Below, piece by piece: positions 57,467-60,100 of a stretch of DNA of 64,000 bases. A program made the translations under genes and the position numbers. The notes below the pieces were generated by a model. It was not told the origin of the DNA, ran no database searches, and saw nothing but the letters and a program-made list of their open reading frames with translations. Numbering within the stretch: position 1 is the first letter of the stretch; every line of letters starts with the position of its first letter. The DNA is from Phycisphaerales bacterium (GTDB lineage: Bacteria > Planctomycetota > Phycisphaerae > Sedimentisphaerales > UBA12454): positions 62,001-126,000 of the forward strand of contig PLMU01000004.1 in assembly GCA_003142595.1 (NCBI GenBank). The letters run 5' to 3'.

Positions 57467-58795
57467 CTATTCAAATTTATTTTTTATCGCCTGGTAGCCG
57501 TAATGCGCCATCAGGTTATCTAGGATAATCATAGCGGTATAATTTTCCGCAACCGGCCAGATTCGTGCCACAATCGTCGGGTCCCGTCTTGTAATCGCGG
57601 CCAGTGTTTTGTTTTCGAGAGTATATTTGTCGATGGTTCTTTGCTGTTTATCTATTGTAGGAGTAGGTTTTACTGCCAGTCTGACAATAATATCCTGACC
57701 GGTTGATAATCCGCCGGTTATGCCGCCTGCGTTGTTGGAATCGAATACGACTTTACCTTTTTCAGAATGCATCTGGTCATTGTTTTGCGAGCCGGTCATA
57801 TTCTTGACAGCGAAGCCTGCTCCGATTTCAACGCCTTTTACCGCTCCGATTCCGAGCATTTTTCCAAGCTCCGCATCGAGCTTATCGAAAATCGGCTCGC
57901 CAAGACCGATAGGAACGCCTCTGACGACAACTTCGACAACGCCGCCCGCTGAATCTCCGCTTGTGGAAATCCTGTTGCAGGCCTTTACCATTTCTTCCGC
58001 CGTCTCGGTGTCAGGACAATTCAGAACGTGATGAACGCCGTATTTTTTCTCTATTTCAACTGCATTGGTTTTAGGCGCTTTGTCGCGAATCTTGTCGATA
58101 TCTTTCTCGATTTGAGCAAAGACCGCCGCTTTTTCCAGAAATCTCATCTCGTTTGTTATTCTGCCGTTTACATAAATTTGCTGATAAAACGGGTCTAAAT
58201 CCCGCCTCATCTTTTTGTAATTTTGTGAGTATTTGAGGATTTTAGCGTTGTCAATTTGAGCGCAGCGAATGCCGGCCAGTTCCCTGACAAAACTGAAAAC
58301 TTCTATGCCGCATTTCTGAAGCACTTTCTTGGCGATGAAACCGGCCGCTACGATTGTCGATGAATATCTGCCGCTGAAAAATCCGGCGCCGATAGAGTCA
58401 TCGGCAGGGCCGTATTTCATAAACGAAGCATAAGAGGCGTGCCCCGGCCGGGGTGTGCGGTTGGTGTCCTGATACTGTTTGATATGTGTGAAGTGCCTGT
58501 CGAGATTCGGAATCAGGATAGTCAGCGGCGTGCCGTTGGTCAGCCCTTTATTTTTTGCGTTCTCGACGGTGTCTGCGGCGTTGACGCCGGTATAGATTAT
58601 CGGCAAATCAGGTTCTTTGCGGGGCGAGCTTAATTCATCTGCTCCCGGCTTTCGCAAAAGCAAATCGCCGTAGATTTCCTGCTCGCTAATCGCCATGGCA
58701 GGGGGATGGCCCTGTATTACAGCAGTCAAGCCGTCCTGATACGACCCGCCCGCTACGGTTACCTGAAACAATCTTCCAAAATGACAGCCTAACAT
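57467..58795 (-). CDS. aroC: Divergent chorismate synthase
   Basis: 442 residues, longer than the usual 360-390. Family features are clear: FGRLFQVT, LRKPGADELSSPRKEPD, RPGHASYASFMKYG (His119), IVAAGFIAKKVL, FDSNNAGGITGGLSTGQDIIVRLAVKPTPTI and DPTIVARIWPVAEN. It removes phosphate from EPSP to give chorismate with reduced FMN. Odd: the N-terminal FGESHG is AGGSYQDG, so the catalytic His is Tyr19, and the D-x-RGGGRSSARET loop reads DDSIGAGFFSGRYSST. It is the last gene of the run after aroA, which supports a role in the same pathway. Confidence 0.85.
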   Translation of the reverse strand: MLGCHFGRLFQVTVAGGSYQDGLTAVIQGHPPAMAISEQEIYGDLLLRKPGADELSSPRKEPDLPIIYTGVNAADTVENAKNKGLTNGTPLTILIPNLDRHFTHIKQYQDTNRTPRPGHASYASFMKYGPADDSIGAGFFSGRYSSTIVAAGFIAKKVLQKCGIEVFSFVRELAGIRCAQIDNAKILKYSQNYKKMRRDLDPFYQQIYVNGRITNEMRFLEKAAVFAQIEKDIDKIRDKAPKTNAVEIEKKYGVHHVLNCPDTETAEEMVKACNRISTSGDSAGGVVEVVVRGVPIGLGEPIFDKLDAELGKMLGIGAVKGVEIGAGFAVKNMTGSQNNDQMHSEKGKVVFDSNNAGGITGGLSTGQDIIVRLAVKPTPTIDKQQRTIDKYTLENKTLAAITRRDPTIVARIWPVAENYTAMIILDNLMAHYGYQAIKNKFE

Positions 58796-58837: not shown

Positions 58838-60100
58838 TTATTTGTGGAAAACTTCAAATCTTTCCCAGAAATCCGGAAAAGATTTTGCCACGCATTTTTC
58901 GTTTTCTATAGTCTGTCCGCCGACAGCGAGCCCGGCAGCCGCGAAACTCATCGCAATTCTATGGTCATTATGGGGATCTATTTTTGCCCCGTGAGCCTGT
59001 ATGGTTCCATCTATTATCAATGAATCCCCAGTGCATTCGGCGTTGACGCCCATTTTATTCAGTTCAGACGCCATTACCGCCAGCCTGTCGCTCTCTTTTA
59101 GTCTCAGATGGCCGATATTAGTCAGTTTAGACCTGCCTTTGGCAAAGGCCGCCGCTATCGCCATTGGCGGGACCAAATCTGGAATATTACTCATATCCTG
59201 CTCAATCGCGGCAAGTTCAGCGCCTTGAATAGAGATTTTGTCTTTTGAGGCCGATACTTTGCAGCCCATTTTTTCGAGAAGATTCAAAAAGGCCTTATCT
59301 CCCTGTTTGGTATCGGTCCGCAGTCCGCTGACGGCAACTTTACTTTTGCAGATTGCCCCCGCCAGGAAGAAAAACGAGGCGCTGCTGTAATCGCCTTCAA
59401 TAGTAAATTCTTTAGCTGAATATTTTTTTCCGCCGGGGATAGTAATCTGTTTGTAGTTATTGTTTACGGCGTTTACGCCGAATTCAGCCATCATCTGCAG
59501 ACTGATATCGAAGTATGGTTTTTCTGTCATTTCATCGGTGCAGTTCAGCGTTACATCTGTTTGAGCATAAGGCGACGAAATCGTAATTGAGCTGAAATAC
59601 TGGGAGGTTTTCGACCCCTTTATGGAAGCCAGGCCGCCGCGGATTCCGCCGCCGTAAATTTTGACAGGCGGAAAGCCTTCTTTGTTAAGATGGTCTATTT
59701 TGCAGCCAAGCTGTCTCATGCCGTTTATGACTTCGCCGACAGGTCTTTCAATAAGTCTTTTTGAGCCGGTGATAATTACAGGTTTATCCGACAGATTTGT
59801 CGCCGAACAGAGAAAATTCATTCCGACGCCGGATTCTCCGACATTTAACTCGCTTTCTGCGGGGCTGTATTTGCCGCCAGAGCCTTGAACGGTTATTTTA
59901 TTGCCGCTGACATCGATTTTTACGCCAAGTTTTTTAAGGCAGTTTATTACATTTAACTGGTCTTCTCCGAGAAGGGCGTTTTTTATAATAGTAACACCTT
60001 CAGCAAGAGAGCCGATGATTATGGCTCTTAATGTATGCGCCTTCGATGGCGGGGCCGTCATTTCTGCATTAAAATTTTTTATTTTTTCTACTGTTTTCAT
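58838..60100 (-). CDS. aroA: EPSP synthase (3-phosphoshikimate 1-carboxyvinyltransferase)
   Basis: 420 residues. PPSKAHTLRAIIIGSLAEG (Lys20, Arg25 for shikimate 3-phosphate), LGEDQLNVINCLKKLG, GESGVGMNFLCSATNL (in place of GNAGTAxRP), HLRLKESDRLAVMASEL and DPHNDHRIAMSFA are the family landmarks. The GESGVGMNFL loop lacks the usual Thr-Ala-x-Arg-Pro, a site known to affect glyphosate binding. Starts three bases after yacP. Confidence 0.94.
   Translation of the reverse strand: MKTVEKIKNFNAEMTAPPSKAHTLRAIIIGSLAEGVTIIKNALLGEDQLNVINCLKKLGVKIDVSGNKITVQGSGGKYSPAESELNVGESGVGMNFLCSATNLSDKPVIITGSKRLIERPVGEVINGMRQLGCKIDHLNKEGFPPVKIYGGGIRGGLASIKGSKTSQYFSSITISSPYAQTDVTLNCTDEMTEKPYFDISLQMMAEFGVNAVNNNYKQITIPGGKKYSAKEFTIEGDYSSASFFFLAGAICKSKVAVSGLRTDTKQGDKAFLNLLEKMGCKVSASKDKISIQGAELAAIEQDMSNIPDLVPPMAIAAAFAKGRSKLTNIGHLRLKESDRLAVMASELNKMGVNAECTGDSLIIDGTIQAHGAKIDPHNDHRIAMSFAAAGLAVGGQTIENEKCVAKSFPDFWERFEVFHK

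Follow-up and report, generated by a model that had tools for sequence, protein, structure and literature searches.

The only chorismate synthase homologue of the Phycisphaerales bacterium studied here is a variant in which tyrosine takes the place of the histidine of the GESHG motif, and a search of the same genome with PF01202 found no shikimate kinase of the AroK type. The gene lies in the window, that is, the whole stretch of 64,000 nucleotides that was analysed. As judged by sequence comparison, the variant is probably the working chorismate synthase of the organism and a member of a deep subclass of the family, with shikimate 3-phosphate being made by a kinase that shares at most a very remote ancestry with AroK. 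The product of chorismate synthase is the common precursor of the aromatic amino acids, and the enzyme is a target for drugs and herbicides. To our knowledge its active-site histidine has been regarded as present without exception across chorismate synthases. Full-text searches, which mostly covered literature outside subscription papers, found no description of the variant or of its link to an absent shikimate kinase.

The gene, its product and the residues of the active site

The genome that contains the window has a size of 2.28 Mb in 18 contigs and a completeness of 98.5%. The protein encoded by the aroC variant (Table 1) covers the entire PF01264 profile (E 1e-95, 320.7 bits against a cut-off of 27) and reaches 323.1 bits with TIGR00033 (aroC; cut-off 212.2), which places it in the chorismate synthase family by both curated cut-offs. 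The earlier note on this DNA had proposed looking for a canonical aroC elsewhere in the genome as evidence against the variant; a PF01264 search of the genome returned this protein as its one match, and no second, canonical copy. The identity to E. coli AroC is 38.8% across 356 aligned residues. As is the case for AroC (PF01264, TIGR00033, EC 4.2.3.5), the gene adjoins aroA, but the variant has about 70 additional residues. This surplus falls mostly in residues 179-221 and 242-257, and also in residues 74-83, of the alignment, and the previous estimate of about 60 extra residues was roughly right (442 residues versus 361 in E. coli).

Table 1. Features of the aroC variant and its surroundings, with related loci in other genomes (window positions unless a locus is named)
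Feature	Position	Strand	Remarks
aroC variant	57467..58795	(-)	Single ORF of 442 codons read from 58795 to 57467; 442 aa; sole chorismate synthase homologue of the genome
aroA (EPSP synthase)	58838..60100	(-)	Directly upstream of the aroC variant; TIGR01356 415.5 bits
GGSYQDG, residues 16-22, replaces GESHG	58730..58750	(-)	Tyr19 codon 58739-58741; Tyr19 aligned to the GESHG His
LLRKPG, residues 46-51, replaces RRRPG-like motif	58643..58660	(-)	Middle Arg48 kept; flanked by Leu47 and Lys49
RPGHAS, residues 116-121	58433..58450	(-)	Arg116 and His119 kept
GAGFFSGRYSST, residues 136-147, replaces GGRSSARET	58355..58390	(-)	First Arg and Glu lost; Ser141 and Arg143 kept
Added helical stretch, residues 179-221	58133..58261	(-)	Alignment and structure model
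Insertion, second part, residues 242-257	58025..58072	(-)	Alignment
TRRDPT, residues 402-407, replaces GRHDP	57575..57592	(-)	Asp405 and Arg403 kept; His to Arg404
Archaeal-type early-pathway loci, family f7	L255:2954-3760, L254:8934-9938, L258:8191-9015

A structure model was built from 43 sequences derived from the window and from contigs. It has a mean pLDDT of 71 and a pTM of 0.78, and its confidence is low at residues 101-141 and across large parts of 311-365, regions that contain some of the active site. At E ≤ 0.001 the model gave 28 matches in the PDB, all of them chorismate synthases (including 1qxo), and thus points, at a pLDDT of only 71, to the same fold as that of AroC.

Three changes or constancies had been read from the letters beforehand, namely a GESHG motif with His changed to Tyr19, a rewritten RGGGRSSARET loop and a retained RPGHA block, and alignment bore out each of them (Table 1). 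When 32 ordinary, 4 sister-group and 28 variant proteins were aligned, the GESHG position was His in all of the ordinary proteins (32/32) and Tyr in all of the sister-group (4/4) and variant (28/28) proteins, so that the variant lacks the His17 of characterised chorismate synthases. The GRHD His is Arg in both Tyr groups. Confined to the variant are the change of the GES Glu to Gly, that of the first loop Arg to Ile, Leu or Phe, that of the ARET Glu to Tyr (27 of 28; Arg in the other one), and the loss of the outer arginines of RRRPG (to Leu and Lys). The sister group, with the motif GESYG (genomes G043, G038, G296 and G450), is 43-44% identical to the window protein and shares with the variant the Tyr for His17 and TRRD for GRHD; unlike the variant, it retains GES and the loop GRASGRET, has Arg or Lys at position 45 and Arg47, and is of near-ordinary length.

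Common to all three groups are Ser16, Arg46, Arg103, His106, Ser127, Arg129, the GRHD Arg and Asp, and the next Arg (yeast numbering, from the alignment with 1r52). Thus the FMN-side His106 of RPxHA (flavin N1), the GRHDP Asp (N5 base) and each of the EPSP-binding arginines R46, R103, R129, GRHD Arg and TPR Arg occur in 28 of 28 aligned variants. The FMN-side His, the Asp and the EPSP residues defined by docking are also kept in the four sister-group sequences aligned. The variant therefore shares with AroC the flavin-side His, the catalytic Asp and the arginines that contact EPSP, and differs from it in His17 (Tyr), in GRHD (TRRD) and in the lost Arg and Glu of the loop. According to a review (PMC3509576), the RPxHA His protonates N1 of the flavin, with a 20-fold loss in the Ala mutant, and the Asp primes N5. 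In the docking of the Paracoccidioides enzyme (PbCS; PMC11633415), EPSP contacts R46, R103 and R362, and its 3-phosphate is bound by R129 and R354; R354 and R362 would correspond to the GRHD Arg and the next Arg, because the two are spaced by eight. The GESHG His is reported as conserved in all known species in PMC2386126, and is placed near the leaving phosphate in PMC7144000. Since the arginines of the 3-phosphate are kept and the GESHG His is gone, the loss, on these accounts, concerns a His near the phosphate and not the arginines that grip it.

The variant retains the arginines that bind EPSP, the FMN-side His and the catalytic Asp, and is therefore read as a working enzyme that forms a new subclass of chorismate synthase; the presence of these residues in all 28 variants and all 4 sister-group proteins aligned, and the fact that every PDB match is a chorismate synthase, both favour this reading. 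Reduced FMN and EPSP would bind as in known enzymes, via Arg48, Arg116, Arg143, Arg403 and Arg411. His119 would protonate the flavin and Asp405 would prime N5. Help to the leaving group would come from Tyr19 and the additional Arg404, which replace His17, and the shikimate 3-phosphate would be supplied by a kinase with no relationship, or only a very distant one, to AroK.

Distribution, phylogeny and apparent exchange with AroK-AroC fusions

A match was obtained in 12 of the 13 genomes of the family to which the window's genome belongs; 11 of them are full-length and of the same length class, and the six full-length matches read in the right frame carry GGSYQD and SGRY. Within the order, 108 of 118 genomes gave a match. 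When these are sorted by match length and neighbours and, where read, by sequence, the variant is the only type in 69 (partial in two of them) and accompanies the ordinary type in 17; a further 14 have just the ordinary type, 2 have the sister type and 6 have nothing but fragments. Scanning of assembled contigs yielded 216 stretches that encode relatives, and the record titles of the best 80 of these 216 name Planctomycetes, Sedimentisphaerales, Lentisphaerae, Chitinispirillaceae, Fibrobacter, Raymondbacteria, Omnitrophota and others (bins, with phyla by title only). The motifs G[GA]SYQ, RPGHA, FSGR and ITRRD are each present in 100 of 100 variant loci, which consist of these best 80 and 20 from the order and include some genomes twice; the variant is therefore not the result of chance or sequencing error. 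Lack of such conservation in relatives had been named beforehand as an argument against the variant, and the opposite was found.

The variant is the sole full-length type of AroC in 22 of 23 genomes that were reached from bins carrying the labels of several phyla, which again favours the reading as a working chorismate synthase. The exception, G119, has an ordinary AroC as well; G128 carries two variant copies and G129 an additional fragment. The variant relatives are 69-89% identical to the window protein where aligned, and 42 of them in one alignment are 73-89% identical, which is high for such a spread. In a quick tree the variant forms one clade with a support of 100, joined to the sister group at 97. 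The distinct subclass that had been suspected was thus recovered, and the Tyr is already present in its sister group.

The stem of the variant clade is long in this tree (2.43 changes per column), which together with the rewritten loop could be taken as a sign that the protein no longer serves chorismate synthesis and has another product. Another point on the side of this reading is that both types occur in 17 of the 118 order genomes and stand in tandem in L060, L032, L034, L035 and L040. It is nevertheless very improbable, as the window's genome and most relatives, in which TrpA is present, have no AroC but the variant, and as the catalytic Asp, the FMN-side His and the EPSP arginines are strongly conserved. 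A change of function, offered in the earlier note as the alternative to a subclass, has no support in the window's genome, because the variant is the sole AroC there and a trp cluster is present. This cluster (L308) has trpA, trpB and further trp genes side by side, TrpA being assigned by profile and the other names by eye. With the variant as the only chorismate synthase, the cluster implies that chorismate is made by this organism.

In many ordinary AroC proteins of the order, an AroK domain precedes the chorismate synthase part. These fusions, of about 540 aa and common in the ordinary-AroC genomes of the order (L014-L042), differ from the variant in their length, their N-terminal shikimate kinase and their ordinary GESHG and GRSSGRET motifs; in some genomes (L017, L021) they occupy the same position beside a secretin gene. 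In G015 (L019) an AroC has a C-terminal extension that resembles chorismate mutase by eye and is not an AroK fusion. Within the genus g15, the fusion adjoins the secretin gene in G025 and G029 (L017 and L021) and the variant adjoins it in G021 (L051). Presence of the fusion and the variant at one place within a genus reads as a functional exchange, and it counts in favour of the variant as a working chorismate synthase. In G047 (L060) aroA, aroK-aroC, the variant aroC and the secretin gene stand in a row, and the two types are also adjacent in L032, L034, L035 and L040. The tandem looks like an ancestral or passing state, followed by loss of either type. Joint loss of AroK and ordinary AroC within the order is explained by the fusion; the other bins are not explained in this way.

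Shikimate kinase and the state of the aromatic pathway

Other enzymes of aromatic biosynthesis were detected in nearly all genomes examined of the order, which favours the variant as a working chorismate synthase. TrpA was found by profile search in 42 of 42 genomes of a panel from the order and shikimate dehydrogenase in 41 of 42; AroA was above the cut-off in 37 of 39. In some variant-only genomes of family f7, archaeal-type first steps are found beside aroDE (ADH synthase, TIGR01949 above cut-off, and 3-dehydroquinate synthase II). A PEPCK and an aminotransferase lie downstream of aroC in some loci, and in L138, L171, L095, L096 and L110, from a few Planctomycetes and Lentisphaerae bins, the variant aroC has a ribulokinase-like and/or AraD-like gene at a distance of less than 6 kb.

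The shikimate kinase (SKI) family was searched with PF01202 at E ≤ 0.001 in 72 variant-only genomes (a first set of 27, and a second of 23 from the order and 22 others), and no match was found in 50 of them. In the remaining 22 genomes, 15 matches score highest with homoserine kinase NF040667 (167.6-189.3 bits; no shikimate kinase model exceeds 117), those of G088, G031, G091 and G118 resemble gluconate or cytidylate kinases by eye, and those of G069 and G122 are weak and fit no NCBIfam model at E ≤ 1e-20 (one of two G122 matches scanned). Only in G071 does a shikimate kinase model fit best; several broken AroK-like stretches lie on the same contig as this AroK-like gene (L065). An AroK-type kinase was thus not found in 71 of 72 variant-only genomes by PF01202 followed by NCBIfam models or inspection by eye, which favours the preferred account with its separate kinase. 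Ordinary-AroC genomes, on the other hand, have a SKI-family match in 55 of 55 cases, comprising 15 of 15, 5 of 5 (G074, G078, G061, G115, G119) and 35 of 35 other Planctomycetota, the last having been picked among the better matches to a sister-group protein and scored as SKI family by PF01202 alone. Fisher's exact test of 1/72 against 55/55 gives 1.4e-35, which is not an independent probability, given the kinship of the genomes, the AroK-AroC fusion in most ordinary members of the order and the selection of 35 of the genomes. The earlier note's proposal of a subclass stands; the link to an absent shikimate kinase formed no part of its claims.

The single SKI match of the window's genome (L077:1489-2022, contig C14) reaches 185.5 bits with NF040667, the homoserine kinase of Desulfovibrio type, just below the cut-off of 197, and 117 bits with the best shikimate kinase model. 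It is not a SKI protein that fits shikimate kinase best, as AroK or AroL would be, and by these scores is homoserine-kinase-like, although automatic annotation may label it a shikimate kinase. The relative DvMF_0971 was shown to be a homoserine kinase, according to PMC5764234. As a general missing kinase the homoserine-kinase-like protein was rejected, because the 50 variant-only genomes noted above are without any SKI match, several ordinary-AroC genomes carry it beside AroK, and the model that fits it best is NF040667. The archaeal GHMP shikimate kinase (TIGR01920) was above the cut-off in 0 of 42 genomes of the order, the window's genome included; of the weak GHMP matches, L174 and L175 resemble IspE by eye, and L176 resembles a sugar kinase. 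No convincing kinase candidate lies among the conserved neighbours of aroC, aroDE and trpA. These two results speak against the preferred account.

Ordinary divergence would leave EPSP as the substrate and only the His-to-Tyr subclass as new, the kinase being a very diverged member of the AroK family missed by PF01202. Such misses may happen, since among 14 control genomes the PF01202 search missed Synechococcus elongatus, and G069 and G122 have their weak SKI-like matches. This explanation is rather improbable, given the contrast between 50 of 72 variant-only genomes without and 55 of 55 ordinary genomes with a match, and the far better fit of 15 of the 22 matches to homoserine kinase than to shikimate kinase models.

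A substrate other than EPSP, for example 5-enolpyruvylshikimate that lacks the 3-phosphate or carries a different activating group, would make the losses of His17 and of the kinase one change. This is unlikely; the strongest reason for it is that the type of AroC and AroK pair beyond the fused cases. If EPSP is the plain substrate, this pairing outside the order, where the genes are mostly unfused, is odd and tells against the preferred account. The sister group, with Tyr and an ordinary loop, also gave no SKI match (0 of 4 genomes), although these genomes are only 61-86% complete. On the account of PMC7144000, the changed residue sits by the leaving phosphate, but the arginines placed on the 3-phosphate in the PbCS docking (R129, R354) are kept in 28 of 28 variants. 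AroA also bears on this question. In a comparison of 30 loci (L207 and L213 left out), the residues at 21 inspected positions do not differ between most variant genomes and the ordinary-AroC genomes of the order, which speaks for a single AroA product common to both; a second AroA type occurs in G000, G002, G005 and G037, all variant-only. AroA as a partner that discriminates between the two types of AroC was unconvincing for the same reason. The window AroA has Ala, Glu and His at E. coli positions 23, 197 and 336, which we take to be contacts of shikimate 3-phosphate, and Glu197 is found in all other non-E. coli AroA of that comparison. The AroA of G014, inspected separately, is a different one and has Ser at position 197. 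A shikimate route without any AroK-type phosphorylation, in which the Tyr-type enzyme would expel a non-phosphate leaving group from a derivative of 5-enolpyruvylshikimate, is unlikely. Between a separate kinase making shikimate 3-phosphate and a different intermediate, the former is favoured.

The large natural clade with Tyr offers a direct test of the need for His in protonation of the leaving group. The absence of a recognisable shikimate kinase from the same genomes points either to a kinase family yet to be discovered or to final steps that depart from the textbook pathway, and the aromatic biosynthesis of many uncultured bacteria could be annotated as incomplete. In genomes that rely on the Tyr form, part of the textbook pathway may run differently.
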